Shown here: piece after piece, positions 10,716-54,203 of the stretch | How the letters are laid out: each line of letters starts with the position of its first letter | Numbering within the stretch: position 1 is the stretch's first letter | The notes under the pieces: model-generated | Seen by the model: only the letters and a program-made list of their open reading frames with translations | Databases searched by the model: none | Told to the model about the DNA's origin: nothing | Translations under genes and position numbers: made by a program | NCBI GenBank assembly: GCA_028287235.1 | Contig: JAQBQB010000022.1 | Location: 186,001-250,000 of the forward strand | DNA: 64,000 nt | DNA from: Gemmatimonadota bacterium | GTDB taxonomy: Bacteria > Gemmatimonadota > Gemmatimonadetes > Gemmatimonadales > Gemmatimonadaceae | Direction: 5' to 3'

Positions 10716-13700
10716 ATGTACAACACGTCGCCCCGCATTAGCGCGCTGCTCGCCGGCGGGCTCGCACTGGTATCCGCGTTGCCCGCTTTGCCTGTGATCG
10801 CTACCGCGCAGTCACGGCCTACTGTCACCGCGCCGCGCACGGCGCTCGCCGAGCCCGCGATCTCTCCCGACGGGAGAGAGATTGCGTTCGTCGCGGGCGC
10901 CGACATCTGGGTGGTGCCGGCTTCCGGCGGTGAGGCACGTCTGCTCGTGTCGCATCCCGCCGCGGAGTCGCGCCCCATGTATTCGCCCGACGGCAAGCAG
11001 CTGGCGTTCGTCTCGACGCGCGACGGAAGCGTCGACGTGTGGCTGCTGACCTTCGCGACTGGCGACCTGCGCCGGCTCACGTACGACGACGGCAACGAGC
11101 AGCTCGACGGGTGGTCGCGCGACGGGAAGTGGGTCTATTTCTCGAGCTCAGCGAACGACATCTCCGGGATGGCGGACGAATACCGCGTCAGCGCCGACGG
11201 AGGCACGCCGATGGCCGTTGCCGCCGATCGGTACGCGACGGAGTACATGGGCGCGCCGAGTCCCGACGGGTCGGTCACGGCGATCGTGGCGCGTGGCAAC
11301 GCGCAGTCGCAGTGGTGGCGAAAGGGACGCAGCCATCTCGACGAGAGCGAGCTGTGGCTCGTGTCGGGCGACAAGCCGGCATACAAGCAGCTCACGCCAC
11401 TCGGCGCGAAGCAGCAATGGCCCATGTGGAGCGCCGACGGACACACGTTGTACTTCGTGTCCGACCGCAACGGCGCGCAGAACATCTGGTCAATGCCGGT
11501 GACCGGCGTTCCAATGTCGGCGGGCAAACCGATCACTGGCTTCACGGCGGGACGCGTGATGTTCCCAACGATGACGCCCGACGGTAAGACGATCGCGTTC
11601 GAGCGCGACTTCGGCATCTGGTCGCTCGACGTGGCCAGCGGGGCGGCGCATCCGCTGTCGATCGCGCTCGTGGGCGCGAACTCGTCGCCCGCGGCGGAGC
11701 ATCTGACGCTGACGACCGGCTTCCGCGATCTCGCCGTGTCGCCGGATGGAAAGAAGCTTGCGTTCGTGGCGCGCGGCGAGGTGTTCGTGGTGCCGGCGGG
11801 TCAGGGCGGCGACGCCCAGCGCGTGACGCGCAGCGTGGCGATGGAACAGATGGTGACGTGGGCGCCGGACAGCCGGCGTCTCGCGTACGCCGCCAATCGC
11901 GACGGCAGTTGGCATCTGTACCTATATGACTTTGCTAATAACACCGAGACGCAGCTCACACGTGGCGCGGCGAATGATGTATCGCCCTGCTTCTCGCCAG
12001 ACGGAAGACAGGTTGCGTACCTCCACGACGGGCGCGAGCTGCGCGTGCTCGACCTCGGCGGAGCCGGTGGGCCGGGAGTTCCGTTGGGCGACGGGCGCGT
12101 GATTGGCCAGGGATATTTCGGGCGTCCACCAACGATCTTCGAGCGGCCCATCGCCTGGTCGCCAGATGGAAAGTGGATCGCCTATCTCGCCGGCGGTACC
12201 AAGCTGTTCGTGAACGCCAACGTCGTGCCCGTCGCCGGCGGTATGTCGCACCAGGTGAGCTTCCTCTCCGACGCCCAGGCCAACTCGATCTCGTGGAGTC
12301 CCGACGGCTCGTACTTGCTGTTGGACTCCGGACAGCGAACGGAGAGCGCGGTAGTGGCGCGCGTCGACCTCGTGCCGCGCACGCCGCGCTTCCGCGAGGA
12401 TCAGCTCGCGGCCCTCTTCCGGGACGACACGCCGGGACGCACGACGCCTGTTGCGCCTCCCGTGCGAACCGAGCCGGTTGTCACCGATACCACGGTACCG
12501 GCGACGCGAGGCGCACGCGCGGTGCGCGTCGTGACTGATGGTGTGCGCGAGCGGCTGTCGGTGCTGCCGATCGGGATGAACGTCACGTCGCAGGCGATCA
12601 GCCCGGACGGCAAGCAGCTGTTGGTCGTCGCCGACGTGGCGGGTCAGCAGAATCTCTACACTTATTCGCTGGACGAGCTGGCGACAGATCCGGCGATCGC
12701 GCGGCAGCTCACGACGACCCCCGGCCGCAAGACGTCGGTGCAGTGGGCGCCCGACGGAAAGTCGGTCTACTTCCTCGAGCAAGGGCGCATCGTCAACGTG
12801 TCGGTCGACACGCACACGCCGCGTACCGTAGTCGCGCGCGCCGAGCTCGACGTCGATTTCACGCGCGAGAAGATGGGCGTCTTCTATCAGGCGTGGGAGT
12901 TTCTCAACGACAACTTCTACGATCCGAAATTCCATGGCGTCGACTGGAACGGAGTGCGCGAGACCTACGCGCCGCTCATTGCCGGCTCGCGGTCGCCCGA
13001 CGACATGCGGCGTCTGCTCAGCCTCATGGTCGGCGAGCTGAATGCGTCGCACATGGGGATCTCGGCGCCGCGCGACGGCACGCCACCGGAGACGGGACGC
13101 ATCGGGCTGCACTTCGAGCGCGTGCCCTACGAGCAGCGCGGCGAGATGCGAATCTCCGAGGTCGTACCGCTTTCTCCCGCGGCGCTGACCGACAAGATCA
13201 AGCCAGGTGATTATTTGCTGGCGCTCGACGGCGTGGCGGTGGGACAGCACGTGAATCTCGATTCACTGCTCGGGTTCAAGGTCGGGAAGCGCGTCGTGTT
13301 GACGATTGCGTCGGCGCCCGACGGCACCAATCGCCGCGACGTGGCCGTGCGGCCGACGAACGCCGGAACGGAGAAGACGCTGCTGTACCGCGCGTGGGTC
13401 GCCGAGCGACGGGCGTACGTCGAGAAGGCGAGCGGCGGCCGGCTCGGCTACGTGCACATGCTCGACATGGGCGGCACCGCGATCGAGCACCTCAACCTCG
13501 ATCTCGACAGCGACAACCATGCGCGCGAGGGCATCGTGCTCGACGTGCGCAACAACAATGGTGGATCGGTGAACGGCCACGCGCTCGACGTGCTGCAACG
13601 TCAGCCGTACGTGCTCATGGTGCGCCGCGGAGTGCCGCCGATGTCGGGGCGCTCGATCCTCGGCCAGCGCGCGCTCGAGGCGCCGACGGTGCTCGTGACC

Positions 13701-15235: not shown

Positions 15236-16528
15236 TTATTGCCGACACGACAGCGCATCGTTGTTGCTGAACACTCGGCCCGCCTCCGCCGAGCGGATGA
15301 ATGCGGCGATTGGGCAGAGCGACTGCGTTTGGCCGCCGCCGCCGCGGCGCATGGAGTACGGGCGAATGAAGACACTCGCCGAATCCACCGGCAGGGTCGC
15401 GACGTTGGCGTAGAACGCTGCAGCTTTGCCGTCGTTGAACAGATACTGCTCGACGTTCGACACATAGAACGCGCTGACGACGCCGTTGTGCCCCGTCAGG
15501 TATGCGCCAATGGCACGAATGGCCCTGGGTCCCGCGAAGTCGCCAGATACGGGCACGATGAGATTTTTCTCATGCAACGACTTGACGTATCTGTAATTCT
15601 CTTCCGACGACAGGAAGCTCCGGGGCTGACCGCTCGCGTCGTCGGAGTAGGCGGTGAGCTCGGCGAAGTCGCCGCCACGGCCGCTCGGGCCGCCGCGCGT
15701 CGAGATGGCGGGGCCGTAATAATAAAACGCGTCGAACACCGCCTTGAGCTTCGCCGATTCGTCGGCCGTGAAGGTGAAGGCGTGCGTCTTCGTCAGCCGG
15801 TCGACGACGCGAACGTAGTCGCGCGCGGATATGGCCGAGTCGGTCTTCACGTTTCGGAACGCGGTCCAGACGTCCTTGATCGGCGTTGCGCTGTCGATGC
15901 CGGCGGGGCGCGGCTTGGCGAAGAGGATCGAGATGAAGTCCGCGCGATCCTTCGCCATCTCGAACATCGCCTTGAACATCAAGTGCTGCATCACCGCCTG
16001 CCGGCGAATGTCCACGACGAAGGCCAGTTTCGGCCGGATGGCGGCGATGTAGGTGAAGTTCTGTTCCGGCCCAACGCCCATGTACACGCCACCGCTCACG
16101 TGCGTGTCGCGCAGCATGCCGTAGAGCCGGCCGACTTCCATCTCGTTCGAGGTGAAGTTGTCCTCGATCTGGAAATAGCCGCCCGGCTCCGAGATCGCGG
16201 TCTCCAACGCCCAGTACTCTGCATCGCCAAGCCGTTCCGGTAGCGCGTTGATCGGCGCGAGTGCCTGAACGACTTGTGGCGGCGGCGCCTGAACCGGCGC
16301 GCTCGTGACGGCGACCGGAGCGGCGCAGCCGGCCAAGAGCATTGTCATCCTGAGGGAGTATCTCGGCATAGTCATCCCGAGGGAGTGTCTCGGCATTGTC
16401 ATCCTGAGGGAGCGTAGCGGCATTGTCATCCTGAGGGAGCGTAGCGACCGAAGGATCGCCGTCCTCGCCGAGAGATCCTTCCCCGTCGCTTCGCTTCGGG
16501 TCAGGATGACAAACGCCGCGAGTTTCAT
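15236..16528 (-). CDS. Lipoprotein of unknown function, signal peptide split by a repeat insertion
   Basis: The ATG at 16526-16528 overlaps the TGA of the upstream BNR gene (ATGA) and has AAGGAG eight bases upstream, so this is the genuine start. The protein begins MKLAAF, then has about 56 residues encoded by a palindromic repeat array (RSLRMTMPL-type nonapeptides), then MLLAGCAAP, a lipobox. The rest (about 365 residues) is a conserved secreted domain with NFTSNEMEVGRLYG and MGVGPEQNFTYIAAIRPKLA, a pattern I associate with methyltransferase-like lipoproteins; the function is not assigned. As it stands the hydrophobic core is separated from the lipobox, so lipidation and export are doubtful. 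The stop is TAA at 15236-15238. Confidence 0.8.
   Translation of the reverse strand: MKLAAFVILTRSEATGKDLSARTAILRSLRSLRMTMPLRSLRMTMPRHSLGMTMPRYSLRMTMLLAGCAAPVAVTSAPVQAPPPQVVQALAPINALPERLGDAEYWALETAISEPGGYFQIEDNFTSNEMEVGRLYGMLRDTHVSGGVYMGVGPEQNFTYIAAIRPKLAFVVDIRRQAVMQHLMFKAMFEMAKDRADFISILFAKPRPAGIDSATPIKDVWTAFRNVKTDSAISARDYVRVVDRLTKTHAFTFTADESAKLKAVFDAFYYYGPAISTRGGPSGRGGDFAELTAYSDDASGQPRSFLSSEENYRYVKSLHEKNLIVPVSGDFAGPRAIRAIGAYLTGHNGVVSAFYVSNVEQYLFNDGKAAAFYANVATLPVDSASVFIRPYSMRRGGGGQTQSLCPIAAFIRSAEAGRVFSNNDALSCRQ
16344..16510. repeat. Palindromic GTCATCCTGAG repeat array inside a coding sequence
   Basis: Four copies of a GTCATCCTGAGGGAG-type sequence begin at 16344, 16371, 16398 and 16425, exactly 27 bases apart. 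The fourth copy is the left arm of a longer hairpin closed by TCAGGATGAC at 16501-16510. Spacing in multiples of three keeps the host frame open, giving repeated nonapeptides. The same family occurs at 46473, 55559 and 59229. Confidence 0.9.
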
Positions 16529-19500
16529 TTTTTCAGCTCCTTGTCGACCGCCGCCAACTCGGCCTTCGCTTCGGTGACTGCCAGCCGCTGCGTGTTCGTT
16601 GGCGCAGCGAAACTTCCCTGTTGCGCGCCGGCTCCATTGAAGCCGCGAGCCACGCCGCCGAGTTTTCCGCGAACGCCGTCGCGTCCTGTCAAACGTCGTT
16701 CGAGCGCGGCGAGACGCGTCGCCTCTTCGCCGGCCGCGGCGGTGCGGCGCGTGCGGAGATCCGCGGCACGCTGCTCCACCTGCACCTGAAGTGCCTGCAC
16801 GTCGAGCAGGAACGTTTCGCGCGCCTTCTGCTGGGCAGTGGTGATGTTGAGCGCTGGATCACCGCGCACCTCGAAGGTGCGCGACGTCGTGTCGCCGTCG
16901 ACGTCGAGCGTGACCTTGAACGTGCCAGGGGAGACGTACGGACCGCGCAGCCCGATGTCGTGCGCCGGAATCGGCAGTTGCACCGGCGCGTCGACTCGGC
17001 CGCGGCCGGCACCGCTACGTCCACCGGCGGGAGCCCCTGCTTCCGGCGGCGGTCCGCCGCCTTCTTCACCGCCGCCACCACCGCCGGCGCCCGCCGTTGC
17101 CGGCGGCGGAACGTGGCGCAGATCCCACGTGGTACGGTGAATCACTCCCGGCGACGTGGAGCCGGCGATGTCGCGAATCACCTTGCCGTCCATTCCGCGA
17201 ACGATGAGCCGAACCTTCTGCGCCGCCTTCGCGAGAGAATAGGTGAATACCGCGCCGTCGGCGGGATTGTCGGCGGCGTACATGCCCTGCGCCGTGTTCG
17301 AGATGTCCTCCCAGTACCACATCAACGTGGCGCGCTTCGGCGCGAAGAGATACGTCAGCTTCGCGGCGATCGCGTCGGTCCACTCGGCGATCGGAGACGC
17401 GTCGTCGAGAATCCAGATGCTGCGGCCGTGCGTGGCGAGCACGAGGTCTTTCGTGCGCGGTTGCACGACGATGTCGTCGTAGCGCGTGGTCGGAAGGTTG
17501 GACGCGAGCCGCGACCATTGCGCGCCGCTGTCACGGCTCACGTACAGCGAGCGCTCGGTTCCGGCGAACAGCACGTTCGCCTTGCCCGGATATTCCTGAA
17601 TGCTGCGCACTGATGCGTCGGGCTGAAGCCCGCTGGTGATCGTTTTCCACGTCTTGCCGAAGTCGGTGGTGCGCGCGATGTACGGCGCGAAGTCGCCGAT
17701 GCGGTGCGCGTCGAACGACACGTAGGCCGTTCCGCGCGACGCGCTAGAAGCAACGATACGGCTGACGTACGTGCCGTTCGCCACGCCGGGAACGCCGGCG
17801 CTCACCTCGCGCCACGTTGTGCCGCCGTCGGTCGAGACCTGAATGTTTCCGTCGTCCGCTCCCACCCACAGCACCTTGGCGTCGAGCGGAGACTCGGCGA
17901 TCGTCGTGAGCTCGCTGTAGCCGGATTCACCGTCGTTCTTCGCGATCTTGATGTCCTTGTCGAGCACGCCCATGAGCCGGAGCGTGTCGCGGTTGACCGA
18001 ACGCGTCAGGTCTTTCGTGCGCGTCCACGTGTTGCCGAAATCTTTCGAGATGAAGAGACGGTTCGCGCCGATGTAGACCGTGCCGGCGGTGTGACGCGAG
18101 GCGATGAGCGGCGCGTCCCAATCCCAACGATATGCCGAGTCGCCCTTGGGCGGCTGCGGCTTGATGTCGATGTGGTCGCCCGTCTCGGGATCGAAGCGTT
18201 GGACGTTGCCGCCGTCGGAGCTCGAGTAGACGTAGCGATAGCCCGCCTTGTCGACCGCCTGCCCCGTGCCGTCGCTGAAGCCGATCTGCTTCCAATCCTG
18301 GTTGAGAATGCCGAGCCAGTGGCGCGTGGCGCTCGGGCCCATCCAGGAGTGCGTGTCCTGCAGGCCGCCGTAGACCCAGTACGGATCGCGATCGTCGACG
18401 GCGATCTTGTAGAACTGGCCGATGGGGATGTTGTTCATGCGCGTGTACGTGAGCCCCAAGTCCCAGCTCTCGTGCATGCCGCCGTCGCCGCCCACGAGCG
18501 TGTGCCGCGAGTTCGCGGGATCGATCCACATCGTGTGGTGGTCGGTCTTGAGTCCCACGTCGTACGCCGGCGAGTTCGGCATGTTCTCGAACGTTGCGCC
18601 GCCGTCCTCGCTCTTGAAGATCGTGACGCCGAGCTCCCACACGCGCTTGTCGTTGGTGGGGTCGATGTAGGGCGCGCTGAAGTACATGGGGCGCGGGTTG
18701 GAGCGGCTCATCTTCTTCCACGTCGCGCCGGCGTCTTCGGTGCGATAGGTGCCCGACTCCGTTGCGTGCTCGACGAGCGCGATGAGCACGTTCGGGTTCG
18801 ACGCGGAGATCGAGAAGGCGATGCGGCCCTTGTCGCCGGCGGGAATTCCGTTCTCCATCTTCTTCCACGTCGCGCCGCCGTCGGTCGTCTTGTACATCGC
18901 GCTGCCCGGACCGCCGCCGTTGTAGCCGAACGTGCTGCGCAAGCGCTGGTAAGTCGCGGCGTAGAGCACGTTGGGGTCGCGCGGATCCATCGCAAGATCC
19001 GTGGCGCCGGTGAGCGTGTCGACGTAGAGGATCTTGTTCCAGGTCCGTCCCCCGTCGGTCGTCTTGAAGACGCCGCGCTCGGGGTTGGGCTTCCAGAGAT
19101 TTCCCGCCGCGGCGACGTACGCGATGTTGGAGTTAGTGGGATGGAGCACGACACGTCCGATGGCGCGGGTGTCGGACAGCCCCAAGGACTGCCAGTGTGC
19201 GCCACCGTCGTTCGATCGATACACGCCGGTACCCCACGACGAGCTCTGTCGGTTGTTCTGCTCGCCGGTGCCAGCCCAGATGATCTTTGGATCGCCGGGA
19301 AAGATTGCGAGGTCGCCGAAGGTGTTGTCGGGCTGGCCTTCGAACACCGGCGTCCAGAAGGTGCCGTGGTTGGTGGTCTTCCAGATGCCGCCACTCGCTG
19401 CCGCAACGTACATGGTCGACGGATCCTTGGGGTCGACCTCGATGTCGTGGATGCGGCCGCCTGTGGCGGCCGGACCGATCGAGCGAAAGTGCAGGGAGTC

Positions 19501-19578
19501 GAACGGCGACTGTGCCTGCGCGAGCGCAGGAAGAAACGCGGCGGCAGCGAAGAAGGTCGCGCGGCGAGCAGTGATCAC
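16525..19578 (-). CDS. Large secreted VPS10/BNR-type beta-propeller protein
   Basis: The protein has about 1017 residues. GTG 19576-19578 has GGAG nine bases upstream and gives a signal peptide (ITARRATFFAAAAFLPALAQA). The body is a sortilin/BNR-like propeller with many sialidase-type Asp boxes: SNDGGAHW, TTDGGRTW, STDGGTTW, SEDGGATF and SRDSGAQW. A Gly/Pro-rich spacer (GGGGGGEEGGG) near residue 850 precedes a C-terminal beta domain and a helical tail. Such proteins are often annotated as glycosyl hydrolases, but I see no catalytic residues, so glycan or protein binding is as likely. It is translationally coupled to the downstream lipoprotein gene. A paralogue is encoded at 50904-54152. Confidence 0.88.
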   Translation of the reverse strand: MITARRATFFAAAAFLPALAQAQSPFDSLHFRSIGPAATGGRIHDIEVDPKDPSTMYVAAASGGIWKTTNHGTFWTPVFEGQPDNTFGDLAIFPGDPKIIWAGTGEQNNRQSSSWGTGVYRSNDGGAHWQSLGLSDTRAIGRVVLHPTNSNIAYVAAAGNLWKPNPERGVFKTTDGGRTWNKILYVDTLTGATDLAMDPRDPNVLYAATYQRLRSTFGYNGGGPGSAMYKTTDGGATWKKMENGIPAGDKGRIAFSISASNPNVLIALVEHATESGTYRTEDAGATWKKMSRSNPRPMYFSAPYIDPTNDKRVWELGVTIFKSEDGGATFENMPNSPAYDVGLKTDHHTMWIDPANSRHTLVGGDGGMHESWDLGLTYTRMNNIPIGQFYKIAVDDRDPYWVYGGLQDTHSWMGPSATRHWLGILNQDWKQIGFSDGTGQAVDKAGYRYVYSSSDGGNVQRFDPETGDHIDIKPQPPKGDSAYRWDWDAPLIASRHTAGTVYIGANRLFISKDFGNTWTRTKDLTRSVNRDTLRLMGVLDKDIKIAKNDGESGYSELTTIAESPLDAKVLWVGADDGNIQVSTDGGTTWREVSAGVPGVANGTYVSRIVASSASRGTAYVSFDAHRIGDFAPYIARTTDFGKTWKTITSGLQPDASVRSIQEYPGKANVLFAGTERSLYVSRDSGAQWSRLASNLPTTRYDDIVVQPRTKDLVLATHGRSIWILDDASPIAEWTDAIAAKLTYLFAPKRATLMWYWEDISNTAQGMYAADNPADGAVFTYSLAKAAQKVRLIVRGMDGKVIRDIAGSTSPGVIHRTTWDLRHVPPPATAGAGGGGGGEEGGGPPPEAGAPAGGRSGAGRGRVDAPVQLPIPAHDIGLRGPYVSPGTFKVTLDVDGDTTSRTFEVRGDPALNITTAQQKARETFLLDVQALQVQVEQRAADLRTRRTAAAGEEATRLAALERRLTGRDGVRGKLGGVARGFNGAGAQQGSFAAPTNTQRLAVTEAKAELAAVDKELKK

Positions 19579-19661
19579 GGAGAGCGGCTCCAATTGTGGA
19601 AGACGATGGACGCTGGAATGTGCAAGCGCGGTGCGGCGATGGCCAGCGCACGTGACGGCGT

Positions 19662-20315
19662 TTGGACGGCGCTCGTCTATTCGGCGTGTCGTCTCCGTCA
19701 CCGCTGTCGCCATCGTCTGGTCGGTCGCACCAGCTCTCGCTCGCGAAGCTCGAGCGCGACACCTACGTGCGAGTCTACTTCGTTCGCGACGGAGTCGCCG
19801 GCGCCGTGGTCGGCGCGCTCAAGGGGCTGACACGGACCGACGCGCGCATCGCGGATGCGGCCGGGGAGATCGTGGAGATTCCGTTCGCGTCGATGACGCA
19901 GGTGAGCGTGCCCGATCTCGACGCGCGATCGGAGAGCTGGGCGAGCGCAATGCCCGATGTCGTGTCGATGCTCGCCGCGCTGGTATTGATCATGGCGCTC
20001 GCCACGCTGGTGTACGGTACGCGGCGACTGTCGTTCGGGGATCTCGCGATTCGCGTGATCGGGATTGGAGCGCCGATCGGCTATCTCATTGGCGGACGGT
20101 TCGCGAAGCGCGTCAACGACGAACGGCGGGGACTGGTCGTCGAGCTGTCGGTTGCCGCGGCAGTGGGGGCGGCGTGGCTTGGGATGTATGCCGTGCGGAA
20201 GGCGCCGGCGCTGCATGCGACCGTGCCGATGCTCGCGACACTCATAGGGGTGACGCTCGTGGGAGCGATCGTTGCAGCCGCGGTGTCGTCGGCAAGAAAA
20301 ACGACGGCCGGATAG
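19662..20315 (+). CDS. Small membrane protein, probably frameshifted after its signal peptide
   Basis: The open frame from TTG 19662 encodes 217 residues: a small beta domain (YVRVYFVRDGVAGAVVGALK to EIVEIPFASMTQVSV), then four hydrophobic segments beginning VVSMLAALVLIMALATLVYG. The N-terminus in this frame is not a signal sequence. In the neighbouring frame, GTG 19652 encodes an excellent signal peptide (RRSSIRRVVSVTAVAIVWSV, then APALA) that runs out of frame at a tandem TCGCTCGC (19737-19744). Removing one TCGC joins the signal peptide to AKLERDTYV. The gene is therefore either freshly mutated or carries a sequence error. Function unknown; the domain resembles SH3-like beta domains common after signal peptides in this group (impression only). 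Confidence 0.6.
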   Translation: MDGARLFGVSSPSPLSPSSGRSHQLSLAKLERDTYVRVYFVRDGVAGAVVGALKGLTRTDARIADAAGEIVEIPFASMTQVSVPDLDARSESWASAMPDVVSMLAALVLIMALATLVYGTRRLSFGDLAIRVIGIGAPIGYLIGGRFAKRVNDERRGLVVELSVAAAVGAAWLGMYAVRKAPALHATVPMLATLIGVTLVGAIVAAAVSSARKTTAG

Positions 20316-20658
20316 CTCCCTCGCCACTTCGCTCGCCCGCTCCGGCTGGCAACGCCGTAACCGTGTGTCGGGCCTCAACTTACGGCGTTGCGGAAGAGCG
20401 GGTCGAGCGTGCCGCGGAGGATTTCTGCGGTGGCGCCGTTCATAACGCGTGCGCCACACCCGTATGGCGGAGCGATGGAACGAAGCGCCGTCTGGAATGG
20501 TCTAGTGCATGGGGCCATCTTAACGTTGGCGGTTCAAACGCCGTCTCCAGATCACGCGTAGACTCTATAGAAGGGAATGCGCCTAAGTCTCGGTCTGAAA
20601 ACTCTTTCCGCGCTCCCGGTGTCCAACCACCCGTAGCTCCACGCTCCTCCCCCAACAG
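20316..20658 (+). other. 343-base intergenic region upstream of the T2SS operon
   Basis: No gene is apparent. It holds a perfect 12-bp inverted repeat (20349-20360 with 20380-20391) and must contain the promoter of the secretion operon. I see no convincing -35/-10 pair. Confidence 0.5.
20349..20391. repeat. 12-bp perfect inverted repeat, 19-base loop
   Basis: GCAACGCCGTAA pairs with TTACGGCGTTGC. It lies 30 bases after the membrane-protein stop. There is no T-tract, so an intrinsic terminator is uncertain; it could be an operator or a small-element remnant. Confidence 0.55.
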
Positions 20659-21138
20659 ATGATGCCTTCCCTACGCGCGCACGCCCGAGGAGTCCGGCGC
20701 GGTCTCCGAGGTCCGATCGGGCGCCGCTCCGGCTTCACCCTCATCGAAATTCTGGTCGTGATCGTAGTGATCGCGATCCTGGCCACGCTCGTTGCGCCGA
20801 ACATCTTCCAGCACGTGGGCGCCGCGAAGAGCGCGACGGCCAAGTCGCAGATCGAGATGCTTGGCGCCGCGCTCGACGCGTATCGTCTCGACAACGGGCG
20901 CTATCCGAGCACCGAGCAGGGACTGAACGCACTGTGGGAGAAGCCGACGATCGACCCGCCGGTGAACTGGCGCGCGCCGTATCTGCGGAAGCCGGTGCCG
21001 GCGGACCCGTGGGGACGGCCGTACCTGTTTCTCTTTCCTGGCCAGGTGAACGTGAACGGATACGACCTGCTCTCGTACGGCGCCGACGGAAAGCCCGGCG
21101 GCGACGGCGAAGACGCCGACATCCTGAGCTGGAAGTAG
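20659..21138 (+). CDS. gspG: Type II secretion major pseudopilin GspG
   Basis: The protein has 159 residues. The prepilin signature GFTLIEILVVIVVIAILATL is at about residues 25-44, with cleavage expected after Gly25 and Glu at position +5 of the mature protein. The rest matches GspG: TAKSQIEMLGAALDAYRLDN and STEQGLNALWEKP, ending in SYGADGKPGGDGEDADILSW, the Asp-rich calcium-binding loop typical of the major pseudopilin. It assembles into the periplasmic piston of the secretion machine. First gene of an eleven-gene plus-strand operon; gspF follows after 17 bases. Confidence 0.97.
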   Translation: MMPSLRAHARGVRRGLRGPIGRRSGFTLIEILVVIVVIAILATLVAPNIFQHVGAAKSATAKSQIEMLGAALDAYRLDNGRYPSTEQGLNALWEKPTIDPPVNWRAPYLRKPVPADPWGRPYLFLFPGQVNVNGYDLLSYGADGKPGGDGEDADILSWK

Positions 21139-21155: not shown

Positions 21156-22358
21156 ATGCCGACCTACGCGTATCAAGCCGTCGACGGCTCGGGGAAGCGC
21201 ACGCGTGGCGAGGCTCAGGCCGCGAGCTCCGGCGCATTGGCGCGGACGCTCGAGGAGCGCGGGCTCTTCGTGCTCGACATGGCGGAATCCGCCGAAGGTG
21301 CGGGCACGAAGAAAGGATTCCGCATTGGCCGGCGGCGCGAAGTGCTTGAGGTGACGCGCGCCATGGCCGCGCTCCTTCCCGTCGGGATGCCGCTCGCGCA
21401 GGCGCTGAACGCGTCGTCTGGCGTCGCGTCGGGCGACGTGAAGGCCGCGCTGCAGGTGATCCGCAGCCGCGTCGAGCGCGGCGACACACTCTCGGCGGCG
21501 CTCGCCGAGCATCCGCGGTTGTTCGCGCCAATTTATGTGGGACTCGTGCGCGCGGGCGAGCGGAGCGGCGACATTGATGGGGCATTTGCTCGTTTGTCCG
21601 ATCAATTGGAGCGCGACGAGGCGTTGCGCGGAAAAGTCCTCTCCGCGGCGATCTATCCGTTGCTGCTCGCGACCGCGGGCTCCGTCGCCGTGACGGTGCT
21701 GTTGTTCTTCGTGCTGCCGCGCTTCGTCACGCTCCTCGAGGGAAGTGGCGCCAAGCTGCCTCGCTCCACGGCGACGCTGCTCGCGTTGTCCGCCGCGTTA
21801 CATCGCTTCTGGCCGGTGCTGCTGCTCATTCCGTTCATCGGCGCGGCAATCGCGGCGTGGGTGGCGAACACCGACGAGGGCAAGCGCGCCTGGTCGGCCA
21901 CGTTGCTCGCGCTTCCCGGCGTTCGTACGCTGCGCCGCTACGCGCTCTCCGGACGGTTCGCGCGACTCGTTGGCGTATTGCTCGGCGGCGGCGCGCCGCT
22001 GCTCATGGCGCTCGACGACACGATCGAATCGATCGGCGACCCTATCGCGCGCGACGACGCGGTGCGCATTCGTACGCGCGTGCGCGAGGGCAGCTCGCTG
22101 CGCGCGGCCGTGGGCGACAGCACGCTCTTTCCGCCGATGCTCGCGCAGCTGATCGGCGTGGGGGAAGATTCAGGACAGCTACGTGTATTTCTCATGAAGG
22201 CCGCGGACATTTTCGAGGAGCGCACCGAGCGCGCGACGCAACGCCTAGCCACCTTCGCCGAGCCGGCAATGATCGTGATGTTCGGCGCGATCGTGGCGTT
22301 CGTCGCGCTGTCGCTGCTGCAGGCGATCTATGGCATCAACGCGAACTCGTTCAAGTGA
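21156..22358 (+). CDS. gspF: Type II secretion inner-membrane protein GspF
   Basis: The protein has 400 residues and starts MPTYAYQAVDGSGKRTRGEA, the usual GspF/PilC opening. Two T2SSF domains are visible: one around residues 65-190 with MAALLPVGMPLAQALNA and GLVRAGERSGDIDGAFARLS, the other around 265-390 with LLGGGAPLLMALDDTIES and LIGVGEDSGQLRVFL. Hydrophobic segments lie near residues 168-195 and 215-235 and at the C-terminus. GspF links the GspE ATPase to the pseudopilus assembly platform. A GGGTGAG ribosome site precedes the ATG. Confidence 0.97.
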   Translation: MPTYAYQAVDGSGKRTRGEAQAASSGALARTLEERGLFVLDMAESAEGAGTKKGFRIGRRREVLEVTRAMAALLPVGMPLAQALNASSGVASGDVKAALQVIRSRVERGDTLSAALAEHPRLFAPIYVGLVRAGERSGDIDGAFARLSDQLERDEALRGKVLSAAIYPLLLATAGSVAVTVLLFFVLPRFVTLLEGSGAKLPRSTATLLALSAALHRFWPVLLLIPFIGAAIAAWVANTDEGKRAWSATLLALPGVRTLRRYALSGRFARLVGVLLGGGAPLLMALDDTIESIGDPIARDDAVRIRTRVREGSSLRAAVGDSTLFPPMLAQLIGVGEDSGQLRVFLMKAADIFEERTERATQRLATFAEPAMIVMFGAIVAFVALSLLQAIYGINANSFK

Positions 22359-33550: not shown

Positions 33551-36500
33551 GTGAGCATCGTTGCACTCGGCGTCAAGCGCTTGTCGAGTGGAGCCGCGAT
33601 TGCGCTCCTCTTCCTTCTTTCCATCACCGCGGCAGCGCAGGCACAGGCCGGCCGTATCACCGGGACCGTGACCGATTCCGCCGCCGGGTTTCCCGTTGCC
33701 GGCGTGACGGTTGCCGTCACCGGCACGCGGTTCGCCGCGTTGACATCCGATGACGGCCGGTTCACCATCGCGAACGTCCCGCCTGGCACGTACAGGCTCG
33801 AAGCGCGACGCCTCGGCTATGCGCCCGTGTCGCGCGCCGGCGTCGTCGTGACCGCGGGTCAAGCCACGACTGTGGAGTTCAAGACGCAGACGACGGTGCT
33901 CCATCTGCAGGAGACCGTGATCACGGGCGTCGTCGATCCAACGGCGGGCACCAAGGTGCCGTTTACCGTGGGCCGCGTGACGAAGGAGGACATTCCCGTT
34001 CCGCCAACCAACGCCGTGGCGGCGATTCAGGGCAAGATCGCCGGCGTGGCGATCGTGCCGCCGGCGCAGCCGGGCGATGGCATCAGCGTGCAGCTGCGGA
34101 CGCCGACGAGCATCAACAAGAGCAACGCGCCGCTCATCGTCGTCGACGGAGTGATCCTATCCGACATCGACGCGTCGTCGGCGGATCTCAACTCGCTCGA
34201 CATCGAGAGCATCGAAGTCGTGAAGGGTGCCGCGGGCGCCTCGCTCTACGGTTCGCGCGCCGCCAGCGGCGTGATCCAGATTCGCACGGCGCGCGGCAGC
34301 GGGCTCTCGCTGGGCCAGACGCAGTTCACGGTGCGGTCGGAGCTCGGCGGAAGCTCGATGAGCCGCGACGTCCAGCGCGCGCGGTATCACTATTATCTCA
34401 CGAACGCCAACGGCGACTACGTGAACGCCGCCGGCGCGGTGGTGACTCGCGATTTTCGCGTGACTCGTCCCGCGGCGACGCGCTTTCAGGACGTCGCCTA
34501 CAACACGCCGATCTACAATCCGGTCGCCGAGGTGTTTCACCCCGGCAGCACGAGCAACAACTCGATCAACATCGCCCAGAACGGCGACAAGACGAACTTC
34601 CTGACGACGGTGTCGCACAACCGACAGGACGGTGTGCTGCGCGATCACGGGGGATACGACCGCACCGACTTCCGCATCAACCTCGATCACCGTCCGCGCG
34701 ACGACGTCCAGCTCTCGGTGAGCGGCTACCATTCCCGCTCGAACCGCGAGGAGCTCGATCCGACCAACGGAGCCGGAGGCGGAAATCTGTTCTTCAATCT
34801 CACGGCGACGGCGCCGGACGTGAACCTGCTGCAGCCCGACCCCGACGGCACGAAGTACATCTTCCAGCCGGATCCGCAGGGCGTGCATCCGAGTCCACTG
34901 TACATGGCGGAGACGCAGAAGAACACCACGCAGCGCATCCGCACGCTTGGCAGCATGGACCTGCGGTACACACCGCGCCAGTGGTTCTCCGGCGATGCGA
35001 ACGTGAGCTACGATCGGTCCGACATGAACCAGTCCTTCTTCCTCAATCGCGGACTGAAGTCGGAGAACGCGGCGACGGGCGACCCTGGCTTTTTGCAACT
35101 GTACAACGCCTACACCACGGCGCTGAATGCGTCGGCGAGCGCGAGCTTCCTCAAGAACTTCGGAAAGCTCACCGGCCGATCGACCGTTCGCGCGCTGGTC
35201 GAGGAGCAAAAATTCCAAGACGAGACGGCGACGGGAACCAACTTCGCCGTCGGCGGCGTGCCGCGTCTCGACGCGGCCCTGTCGCGCAGCAGCGCGTCGT
35301 CGCAGAACGAGATCAACGCGCAGGGCTATTTTCTCACGGCGGGTTTCGATTACGACAGCCGTCTGATCATCGACGGTCTCGTGCGGCGCGACGCGAGCTC
35401 GCTCTTCGGGGCGGGCGAGCAGTGGCACACCTACACTCGCGAGAGCGCGGCCTATCGCATGGCGCAGGAACACTGGTGGCCCTGGCAGCGGGTGAACGAG
35501 TTCAAGTTCCGCTTCTCGCAGGGCACTGCCGGCACGCGCCCGTCGTTCGCCGACCAGTACGAGACCTACACGATCGGCGCGAACGGCACGCTCGCCAAAT
35601 CCGCGCTCGGCAACCGCTTCCTCAAGCCGGAAACGGCGAAGGAGACGGAGTTCGGCCTCGACGTCATCGTCGACAACCGGTTCTCGCTGCAGCTCTCACG
35701 GGCGAATGAAAAGACGACCGACGAGCTGGTACAGATTCCGCTGCCCGGTGCGGTCGGCTTCACGTCGCAGTGGCAGAACGCCGGAACGGTGGTCGGCAAC
35801 ACGCTCGAAGCAACCTTCGAGGCTGAATTGCTCCATCGCGGCACGACGTCGTGGAAGATGGGCATCACGGCCGATCGCTCGCGGCATCACATCTCCGAGT
35901 TCAATCGCAGCTGCGTTCGCACGAACACGATCTCGTACCGCTGCGCGGGCGAGGATCTGAGCACGATGTACGGCAACGCGTTCGTGCACTCGCTGGCGAA
36001 TCTGCCGGCGTCGCAGTCGAGCGCCGCGCCGGGCACGTTCGAGGTGAACGACGATGGCTTGCTCGTCGCCGTCGGAGCTGGCAACCATTACACGTCGGGC
36101 AAGTGGGGCACGACCGTGGTGAGCAACGGCACCACCTATCAGTGGGGCATGCCGATCGTCCAGCTCGATTCCACCGGCCAACAGGCAATCATCAAGATCG
36201 GCAGCGGCAATCCGCGCTTCCACTACGGTATCTCGAACAACATCCAGTGGCACGGCATTCAGTTCTACGGATTGATCGACACCCAGATGGGCGGCCAGAT
36301 CTACAACCAGAACAACCAGCGCAGCTATCAGTACCAGCGCAGCTCCGACGTCGATCAGGTCGGCAAGGCCGACTCGCTGAAGAAGACGATCGATTATTAC
36401 TCGCTCGTCTACAACGGCAACGCGATCGAAGATTGGTTCGTCGAACCGGGCGGCTTCGTGAAGCTCCGCGAGCTGTCGGCGACGTACAAGATTCCCCCGC

Positions 36501-50903: not shown

Positions 50904-53900
50904 TTAGCATACCGGCGCGCTCGGAGGGGAAGAAGTTGGGATCGGCTTCACGTTGTTTCGCGCCAGCACGGCGTTGAATGTCGGAACGTCCTGCGAATTG
51001 ATCGAGCGCCACGCCACCGTCGCCGACTTCAGCTCGGCGCAGGTCGCGCGATAGATGCTCTGCATCGGCTCGTTCGGCGCCATGTCTCCAGATTCGAGCG
51101 TGTTCTGCTGGCGATTCATGGCGCCCACGATCGCGGCGAAGTTCGGCGCCGGCGGGGGACCCTGAGCACCGCCGCGTCCGCCGCCGCCACCACCGCCGCC
51201 GCGCCCCGCACCGCCGCTCCCGCCGACGGCCGCCAACTTTGCTCCGAGCGCACTCGCCGCCGCGGCCACGTCCGCCGGCGGATTGGCGCGGGTAAGGTCG
51301 GCGAGGGCCGCGCGCATCGCGGAAACCTGTGTGTACCCAGTCCACGCGGTCTTCGACCCGTCGAGCAACTTCATCATGAGGTCGTGCTGCGCCCGCAGGT
51401 CAACGGCCGTGGCCGGCGAACGCGGGTCGTTCTTCACGGTGAGCGGTTGGGAATATGACTTTCCATCCACGGTCAACTTGACCGTGTACACGCCCGGCAG
51501 CGCCAGCGGGCCTTCGGGCGACGCCGGCGTCTCGCCGGGGTTCGCGTTGATCTCGTAGTTGTGCGTGAACGTCGGCGGGCTGTCGTAGCGAAGATTCCAG
51601 TTGATGCGGTTGGTGCCGGGCTCGGTCGGCATGGGCAGCCGCTTCTCGAGCCAATAGTCGGGCACGGCCGGCGGCGGTTCGGTGAGCGGCGCGATCGCGG
51701 CGCTCGACATGTGCCGCACCACCTTTCCGCTCGCGTCCGCGATCTCGAGCGCGACGCCTCCGCTCGGGCGCGCACCGAGGTAGTAGTAGATGAGCGCACC
51801 CACCGGCGGGTTGGCGGCGTGCGGCACCTCGGGCGGGAAGGGCGTGTCGCCGTTCATGTTGCGCCGAACGCGAATCGCATCGCCGGGCTTGAACAAGTGC
51901 GCCGGCTCGGACGCGATGCCTGGCGTCATTTGCCGCAACGGCGAGAAGTCGTCGAGAATCCAGAAGCTGCGCCCGTACGTGCCGACCACGAGATCGTTGT
52001 CCTTGATCACGAAGTCGCGATACGACGTATTCGGAAGATTGAGCATCAACGACTGCCAGGAGTCGCCGTCGTCGAACGAGACGTAGACCGAGCTTTCGGT
52101 CCCGGCGAAGAGCAGGCCCTGCTTCTTCGTGTCGCTGCGAATGACGCGCGCAAAGCTGCCGCTCGGCTGATCCGTGCGCATGCCGTTCACGATCTTCGTC
52201 CACGTCTTGCCGTAGTCGTGCGTGCGATAGAAGTACGGCGTGTAGTCGCCGGCCGTGTGGTAGTCGATCGCCGCGTACGCCGTCGCGGGATCGTGGTGCG
52301 ACGCTTCGATCGTCGAGATGTCGGCCCGCGTCGGATTCGGCAGACCGGCGATGGTGACGTCCTGCCACGTTGCGCCGTGATCGCGCGTGAGCTTGATCAA
52401 GCCATTGTTCGTGCCGACCCAGATCGTGCCCGCGGCGAGTGGCGAGGGTGACACCGATTCGATCGAGCCGCCGGCGCCCGGAGATCCAGGCGGCGCTGCC
52501 GGCTGACTCCTCGGCGGCGGTGCAACGCCCGCCGGATAGCCGAGGTCGGGGCTGAGCTTCTTCCAGTGCATGCCGCCGTCGGTCGTCGCCATGAGATACT
52601 GGAACGCGACCATGAGCTCGTGCGGATTCGTCGGCGACCAGACGATGGGTTGGTTGCCGACTTTCCGCAGCGCGAGACTGGTGTCCATGTTCGGACTGAT
52701 GTTGATCCACTGCCCGCTCGGGTAGGTGATCTTCACCACGCCGCCGCCGGGCCCGCCGGCGTAGATGATCTTCGCGTTGAGCGGATCGGCGACGATGTAG
52801 CCGAACTCGTAGCCCGGCGTCGGCAGCCAATCGAGGTTCGTGATCTCGCCCAAGTCGCCGCGGCTGCGCGTGGCGATGGAGCCGGCATCCTGCAGCGTGC
52901 CGTACACCCAGTACGGATACGAGTTGTCGACGGAGATGTGATACGCCTGCGCGGTCGCCTGGTTGTACCACGAGCTCCAGGTCTGTCCCGCGTCGAGCGA
53001 GATCGTGGCGCCTTGATCGACGCCGAGAAACAGGCGGTTGCCGTCGGTGGGGTCGATCCACATCTGCTGCGGGTCGTCGCCGCCGGGCGCACCCTTGAAC
53101 GCGGCGAACGTGTTGCCGCCGTCGGTAGACCGGTAGCTCGACGTCGCGAGCGTGTAGACGATGTCGGGATTTTTCGGATCGACGTAGACGCCGGAGGTGT
53201 AGTTGCCCTGACCGTTGGCGATGCGCCGGTCGCTCGCCGCCATCTGCCGCCACGTGGCGCCGCCGTCGTCTGAGCGATAGAGGCCGAAACCGCCGATGAG
53301 GTACATCCGCTGCGAGTTGGTGTTCATCGCGACGGCGACGCTCGTGCGCCCGGTGAGCGCCGGCAGTCCGCCGCCGGCGAGCTCCTTCCAGGTCACGCCT
53401 TCATCAGTAGACTTGAATAGCGACGTGCCGCTCGGTCCGGTCTGTGCGCCCCCGCCGCCTCCCCGGCCAACCACGCGCGGATCGGTGTAGTGACGCACGG
53501 TCGCGGCGAGCATGACTCGCGGATTGTCGTACGCCCACGCGAGCTTTTGCACGCCCGTCTGATTGTCGACGTAGAGCGTCTTCGTCCAGCTCTTTCCGCC
53601 GTCGGTGCTGCGATACAGCCCGCGCGTCTCACTTGGCTTGTGAATGTCGCCCTGCGCTCCGAGCATCACGAGATTCGGATCGTGTGGATCGACGAGGATG
53701 GTGGGGATCTGCTTGGTATCGTCCAGCCCGAGGTGCTGCCACGTTTTTCCGGCGTCGATCGATTTGTAGACGCCGTTGCCCTCGTTGATGCCGCCGCCGG
53801 TGACGAGGTCGCCGGTGCCGACGTAGATGACGTTCGGATCGGAGGGCGCCACTTCGATGGCGCCGATCGATGAGACTTCTTTAATAGAGTCGAAAACCGG

Positions 53901-54152
53901 GAACCAGGTCACGCCGGCGCTCGTCGTCTTCCATACGCCGCCCAGCGGAAGGCCCGCATAGAAGACGCCCGGCTGGCCGATGGCCCCGCTCACGGCGGCA
54001 ATGCGTCCGCCGCGAAAGGGACCAATGCTGCGCCAGACGAGCCCCGACAGCAGGTCCGGCCTCACCGGCGCGGCGGCGACAACGGTCAGCAGTCCGACAA
54101 CCAGCAGGGATGCGCCGAGCGCCCAACGACGATTGGAGCCGCGTGTCGACAT
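50904..54152 (-). CDS. Large secreted VPS10/BNR-type beta-propeller protein (paralogue)
   Basis: The protein has about 1082 residues from ATG 54150-54152 (an ATG at 54180-54182 adds ten). The signal peptide is WALGASLLVVGLLTVVAAAP. Asp-box repeats such as SIDAGKTW, STDGGKSW, SDDGGATW, SLDAGQTW and TTDGGMHW run through the first 720 residues. A beta-sandwich region and a Gly-rich spacer (GGAGRGGGGGGGG) close the protein. The architecture parallels that of the protein at 16525-19578. No sialidase-type catalytic residues are evident, so a binding or scaffolding role is possible. Its C-terminus has a Pro/Ser tail ending APVC. Confidence 0.88.
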   Translation of the reverse strand: MSTRGSNRRWALGASLLVVGLLTVVAAAPVRPDLLSGLVWRSIGPFRGGRIAAVSGAIGQPGVFYAGLPLGGVWKTTSAGVTWFPVFDSIKEVSSIGAIEVAPSDPNVIYVGTGDLVTGGGINEGNGVYKSIDAGKTWQHLGLDDTKQIPTILVDPHDPNLVMLGAQGDIHKPSETRGLYRSTDGGKSWTKTLYVDNQTGVQKLAWAYDNPRVMLAATVRHYTDPRVVGRGGGGGAQTGPSGTSLFKSTDEGVTWKELAGGGLPALTGRTSVAVAMNTNSQRMYLIGGFGLYRSDDGGATWRQMAASDRRIANGQGNYTSGVYVDPKNPDIVYTLATSSYRSTDGGNTFAAFKGAPGGDDPQQMWIDPTDGNRLFLGVDQGATISLDAGQTWSSWYNQATAQAYHISVDNSYPYWVYGTLQDAGSIATRSRGDLGEITNLDWLPTPGYEFGYIVADPLNAKIIYAGGPGGGVVKITYPSGQWINISPNMDTSLALRKVGNQPIVWSPTNPHELMVAFQYLMATTDGGMHWKKLSPDLGYPAGVAPPPRSQPAAPPGSPGAGGSIESVSPSPLAAGTIWVGTNNGLIKLTRDHGATWQDVTIAGLPNPTRADISTIEASHHDPATAYAAIDYHTAGDYTPYFYRTHDYGKTWTKIVNGMRTDQPSGSFARVIRSDTKKQGLLFAGTESSVYVSFDDGDSWQSLMLNLPNTSYRDFVIKDNDLVVGTYGRSFWILDDFSPLRQMTPGIASEPAHLFKPGDAIRVRRNMNGDTPFPPEVPHAANPPVGALIYYYLGARPSGGVALEIADASGKVVRHMSSAAIAPLTEPPPAVPDYWLEKRLPMPTEPGTNRINWNLRYDSPPTFTHNYEINANPGETPASPEGPLALPGVYTVKLTVDGKSYSQPLTVKNDPRSPATAVDLRAQHDLMMKLLDGSKTAWTGYTQVSAMRAALADLTRANPPADVAAAASALGAKLAAVGGSGGAGRGGGGGGGGRGGAQGPPPAPNFAAIVGAMNRQQNTLESGDMAPNEPMQSIYRATCAELKSATVAWRSINSQDVPTFNAVLARNNVKPIPTSSPPSAPVC

Positions 54153-54203
54153 GGAGTTCACTCTCGCGATGTAGTCGTTCATCGCGAAAGCATACGGCGC
54201 GAT

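Follow-up and report, generated by a model that had tools for sequence, protein, structure and literature searches.

A signal-peptide frame and an orphan membrane-protein frame that probably once formed a single gene

Two adjacent reading frames in a 64,000-base stretch of Gemmatimonadota DNA (the window) are probably the head and the body of one former gene, split by a net shift of one base (probability about 0.65). A signal-peptide-like sequence begins at GTG 19652, and a membrane-protein coding sequence that has no plausible start in its own frame follows it one base out of phase. The former gene would have encoded a membrane protein whose N-terminal part was exported, and a simple indel somewhere in about 19721-19744, near the signal-peptidase region, would have parted the two frames. 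No normal product would be expected today, because translation from GTG 19652 should run into an Arg-rich out-of-frame tail. The locus would then be either a small-indel pseudogene or the site of an indel error in the assembly. Against the split-gene reading, no homologue with both parts joined was found in any of the homologue searches.

The likeliest account of the locus is commonplace, a gene that is broken or was misread, and its importance beyond annotation is small. Automatic gene callers would be expected to start the protein at TTG 19662, GTG 19686 or GTG 19767 and so to miss the signal peptide. Codon statistics combined with a scan for signal peptides in the other frames can suggest a split gene even where no homologue is available.

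Layout of the locus

The features referred to below are as follows.

16525-19584, minus strand: Sortilin/VPS10-type BNR-repeat protein gene, divergent, start probably at 19578, with a signal-peptide-like N-terminus of its own
19652-19744, plus strand: signal-peptide-like frame (VTAFGRRSSIRRVVSVTAVAIVWSVAPALA, then R) from the GTG start at 19652, by translation and signal-peptide score
19719-19727, plus strand: second 4-base tandem doublet (GGTCGGTC at 19719-19726, GTCGGTCG at 19720-19727), bordering the interval in which codon scores favour a switch
19721-19732, plus strand: interval favoured by codon scores for leaving the signal-peptide frame and entering the membrane frame (best point 19729, the others at most about 3 bits worse)
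19731-20315, plus strand: membrane-protein coding sequence lacking any plausible start in its own frame, by codon scores, frame-finding path and hydropathy
19737-19744, plus strand: two-unit 4-base tandem TCGCTCGC, which could be the lesion but is not the favoured site
20330-20446, minus strand: what is left of a PadR-family regulator gene, some 33-40 codons with one in-frame TGA
20659-21138, plus strand: type II secretion protein G (T2SS-G) gene
21156-22358, plus strand: type II secretion protein F gene, following the G gene

The frame opened by GTG 19652, for which GTG 19631 is an alternative start, translates as VTAFGRRSSIRRVVSVTAVAIVWSVAPALAREARARH followed by the Arg-rich out-of-frame tail and meets no stop before 20662. 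The membrane frame lies one base further on. It is open from 19656 and stop-free over 219 codons; from TTG 19662 to the TAG at 20313-20315 it comprises 217 codons, ends at 20315 and contains HQLSLAKLERDTYVRVYF. Both frames are open across the junction. A preliminary description of this DNA had reported the signal peptide at GTG 19652, the tandem at 19737-19744 and a membrane frame one base off, and its letters and coordinates were confirmed here. Inspection by eye revealed no ribosome-binding site ahead of GTG 19652, and a sigma-70-like promoter was looked for without success; both results tell against the split-gene reading.

Coding signal of the membrane frame

The membrane frame is coding DNA from about 19725-19731 onward. 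The codon model was trained on 17 ORFs, four of them apparently in the wrong frame, and then on a cleaned set of 13. Between 19745 and 20315 the GC content by codon position of the membrane frame is 0.69/0.51/0.81, and that of the training ORFs is 0.69/0.51/0.80 (17 ORFs) or 0.65/0.51/0.85 (13 cleaned). Over the same stretch it scored +61 bits with the 17-ORF model, against -38 and -118 for the other two forward frames and no more than +12 in any reverse frame. In the cleaned model the sum over codons 19767-20312 was +62 bits, and the frame-finding path over the window runs as coding in the membrane frame from 19725 to 20293.

GTG 19767 was tried as a start and rejected, since the 12 preceding codons (19731-19766) are strongly coding. 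With the cleaned set they scored 11.1 bits, a value matched or exceeded in 57 of 42,620 non-coding-frame windows and in 509 of 8,498 in-frame windows. As no ATG, GTG or TTG occurs in frame among these 12 codons, the coding part extends upstream of GTG 19767. The nearest upstream starts in the membrane frame, 19662 and 19686, sit in a stretch that scores as non-coding. The locus thus has what is looked for in a frameshift pseudogene, a coding signal that shifts frame and a downstream part without a start codon.

Small-indel pseudogenes are a general class in bacterial genomes. The present locus resembles them in that a short indel would leave the coding signal running on in another frame and in having a gene remnant next to it; unlike those with an intact relative, its ancestral state is reconstructed solely from codon statistics and the signal peptide.

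Rarity of the signal peptide

The sequence from GTG 19652 shows the features of a Sec signal peptide, namely a positive n-region, an uncharged hydrophobic core and an A-x-A-type end, as judged by a home-made score of these three properties (not SignalP) that was designed after the candidate had been seen. The score was applied to every start codon in six frames. Among the 5,022 start codons of the window, two attained the value of the candidate: GTG 19652 itself and 54152, which is the beginning of ORF 50904-54182. When the window and the fetched loci were taken together (346,867 bases), seven loci copying the window's own DNA being dropped and identical 150-base contexts counted once, the value was attained by four of 23,741 distinct starts, the candidate included; the two additional ones are adjacent starts in a single locus, L033. 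In third-order Markov sequence it was attained at 2 of 49,327 starts. A chance origin of the signal peptide is unlikely, and because such scores are so rare among start codons, the two pieces were probably once one gene.

The four starts also differ in what follows them. At the other three (two loci) the best coding score past the cleavage site stays in the start's own frame, with 0.22 and 0.22 in L033 and 0.06 at 54152, the last falling under the cut-off of 0.1 for calling a frame coding. At GTG 19652 the best score, 0.60, is found in a different frame.

Neighbouring genes and the junction

Between the stop of the orphan gene and the T2SS-G gene, the PadR remnant encodes EILRGTLDPLFRNAVS, a stop, and then GPTHGYGVA. 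Its identity to PadR proteins of the fetched loci is 42-68% across 26-45 residues. The rest of the PadR gene (its 3' part) gave no match beside the remnant, and the short remnant itself gave no match in Pfam; its intact relative in genome G005 scores 72.6 bits as a PadR protein in Pfam, where the cut-off is 27. Directly upstream of T2SS-G, and divergent from it, G005 and G004 carry a PadR gene without breaks. A motif look revealed none in the stretches upstream of T2SS-G from G003 and G001, which counts against the split-gene reading. In a DNA search of the region the PadR coding sequence was the strongest repeated match.

The closest relatives of the VPS10 protein are found in G003 and G005 (74 and 71% identity), where the T2SS-G relatives are on other contigs; since the two sets of relatives fall on different contigs of draft assemblies, the junction of the window is not seen in these genomes. 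The orphan gene was absent from all six fetched stretches (best tblastn E 0.11). Because the VPS10/BNR and T2SS genes adjoin here and their relatives lie on different contigs, a rearrangement has probably taken place, with its breakpoint at about 20315-20340. On the simplest reading, the sequence to the left of about 20330 would have replaced the rest of a PadR locus, and damage to an orphan gene at a junction of this kind would be unsurprising.

VPS10/BNR-repeat matches numbered 18 in the window's own genome, some of them pieces of one protein, and 16-30 in each of five congeners, as in an expanded family. The codon model departs from the frame of the VPS10 gene at 16997-17092, a Gly-rich stretch; this was read as an artefact of composition and not as a frameshift.

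Decay or assembly error

The membrane frame is otherwise undamaged: its 219 codons are free of stops and have kept their codon bias, as they would if the indel had arisen in sequencing or assembly and the living gene were continuous. Against this, the rest of the window reads cleanly. The frame-finding path comprises 60 coding segments, with a change of frame between 32 same-strand neighbours, and at 30 of these 32 changes a start codon coincides with the neighbour's stop or lies close to it; the other two make up a single excursion within the Gly-rich stretch of the VPS10 gene. This argues that indel errors are rare in the window. All 18 VPS10-type matches in the same genome are stop-free as well, a result with which frameshifts are still compatible. 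We therefore regard an assembly indel as possible but doubtful. It is a special case of the split gene, as is the slippage at the TCGC doublet considered below, and the weights given to these two overlap with that of the split gene itself. Decay would be somewhat likelier than an assembly error, because a decayed PadR gene adjoins and the junction is not shared with relatives.

Reading frame of the N-terminus

If the membrane protein were encoded by an intact gene starting at TTG 19662 or GTG 19686, the signal peptide in the other frame would be a coincidence. Multi-pass membrane proteins need no cleavable signal, and it also counts for an intact gene that the membrane frame is open from upstream of both starts. 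However, over 19662-19730, where it reads LDGARLFGVSSPSPLSPSSGRSH, the membrane frame scored -9.1 bits; over 19652-19729 the signal-peptide frame reached 0.0. The competing frame would also have to carry by accident a signal peptide of a strength reached at only 4 of 23,741 starts.

The signal-peptide frame (26 codons) scored -0.07 per codon in full and -0.13 for synonymous choice. Its score lies within the range of neighbours with signal-peptide-like starts, which in full per-codon terms was -0.43 to +0.07 at 10716, 31847, 36711, 19578, 55526 and 54152, with +0.36 at 33551. The membrane frame from 19662, at -0.43 per codon, is also within this range and equals the real neighbour start 36711, which favours the intact gene. 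When only synonymous choice counted, the best of the three was the third frame, read from ATG 19639 (+0.20 per codon, against -0.13 for the signal-peptide frame and -0.20 for the membrane frame). Since the membrane frame is in range too and the third frame is best synonymously, the frame of the N-terminus is not decided by codon scores alone. Given the poor score of the membrane frame over 19662-19730 and the rarity of the signal peptide, an intact gene is unlikely.

The codon signal sets in late, 73 bases after GTG 19652. This was considered as a trait of signal-peptide genes and dropped, as the neighbours are mixed: the onset is at 69 bases for 31847, 66 for 36711, 124 for 55526, 162 for 10716 and 10 for 19578, with none for 33551 and 54152.

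Position of the frame change

For the split gene, the point at which the frame changes was placed by a switch-point score, in which the codon scores of the signal-peptide frame before the point and of the membrane frame after it were summed. With all codon information the best point was 19729, and the listed points between 19721 and 19730 were within 2.5 bits of it. A switch at 19739 costs 6.4 bits relative to the best point, one at 19742 costs 9.9 and one at 19745 costs 10.5. With synonymous choice alone a switch at 19736-19745 costs 8.8-12.2 bits; the best point is then 19678, with 19724 within 1.8 bits, and the signal-peptide frame itself is not preferred upstream of 19730, which counts against the split gene. 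A change upstream of the TCGC doublet is favoured because the membrane-frame codons at 19731-19745 (CAG CTC TCG CTC GCG) are preferred ones and the signal-peptide frame at 19730-19741 uses mostly rare ones (CCA GCT CTC GCT). This placement is evidence and not proof, as a codon model trained on whole genes might score a signal peptide too low at its Ala/Pro-rich end.

In the preliminary description the signal peptide and the membrane protein had been taken to be separated by a four-base duplication at 19737-19744, called a classic slipped-strand event. That the two are one base out of frame holds. The duplication of one TCGC by slipped-strand mispairing has in its favour that the signal peptide ends at this site (PALA) and that a 4-base unit yields the observed difference in phase, but a switch at the doublet is 6.4-10.5 bits worse than the best point, and the doublet at 19719 or a change of one base could produce an equal difference. 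Doublets of 4 bases are common in this GC-rich window, starting at 379 of 63,992 positions and occurring in 209 of 2,132 tiles of 30 bases, with others at 19719 and 19779, and the TCGC doublet itself is weak evidence. With only two units present and the codon scores favouring 19721-19732, the doublet is not the favoured lesion site, the slipped-strand claim is not supported, and we consider a TCGC slip improbable.

The proximity of a doublet to a frame break gives no ground for calling it the lesion, and a short tandem near such a break should not be assumed to be the cause.

A working switch

With a functional switch at this boundary, the cell would make exported and non-exported forms of one protein. 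The orphan gene would be alive, and a rare translational event (a +1 ribosomal frameshift) or a change in repeat length would set its export. Both frames are indeed open across the junction and the body keeps a good codon bias. Known +1 frameshift sites such as prfB have a stop codon in the zero frame, but the zero frame at the present junction has none. The doublet resembles phase-variable tetranucleotide loci in being a 4-base tandem within a gene whose change in length shifts the frame, as in icaC of S. aureus (PMC4117637) and the simple sequence repeats of Haemophilus (PMC2651432). It differs from them in having only two units and in that the codon evidence favours another switch point: tetranucleotide repeats were counted from three units up in the Haemophilus survey (PMC2651432), and rows of the table of icaC variants give 4 to 6 units (PMC4117637). 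Measured against that threshold of at least three units and those icaC values, the two units at 19737-19744 make phase variation unlikely, and a working switch of either kind is very improbable.

The orphan membrane protein

As far as searched, the membrane protein appears to be an orphan. At E 0.001, only the window's own copy was found among 59 genomes of relatives, its own included, and among 395 genomes of the phylum the one that matched was again its own. Six genomes of the genus, searched at E 10, and 148 genomes of the family, searched at E 0.1 with the soluble part alone, likewise gave nothing but the own copy at E 0.001 (own genome included in both sets). A search of 288 genomes of the order at E 0.02 gave weak matches of 15-18 bits in 11, the own genome among them; chance alone should yield about six. 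No homologue came from two scans of GTDB contigs, in which only close relatives are visible as exact 8-residue peptides were required, or from a plasmid collection and viral contigs.

The weak matches from the genus, family and order searches, at 22 loci, were inspected by eye and rejected as short, largely hydrophobic stretches in unrelated or antisense frames. A stretch of about 48 residues links two of these loci, L006 in the own genome and L070, each matching the kind of membrane protein found at the other. The alignment at L071 (115 residues, 30%) passes through a frame with a stop. A further match from the order, in G093, has no locus assigned to it.

The NCBIfam family TIGR04073 was rejected at 15.8 bits against a cut-off of 50. 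The best Pfam match, DUF1129 (PF06570; E 0.0014), is a weak likeness in the hydrophobic region for which membership is not claimed, as 18.7 bits compare with a gathering cut-off of 29.1. By hydropathy, about 60 soluble residues are followed by two strong hydrophobic stretches (VVSMLAALVLIMALATLVY and MLATLIGVTLVGAIVAAAV), a weaker one (GLVVELSVAAAVGAAWLGM) and a marginal one (FGDLAIRVIGIGAPIGYLI). A single-sequence structure model of low confidence (mean pLDDT 54) gives the soluble part two strands and one helix, and shows four long helices besides.
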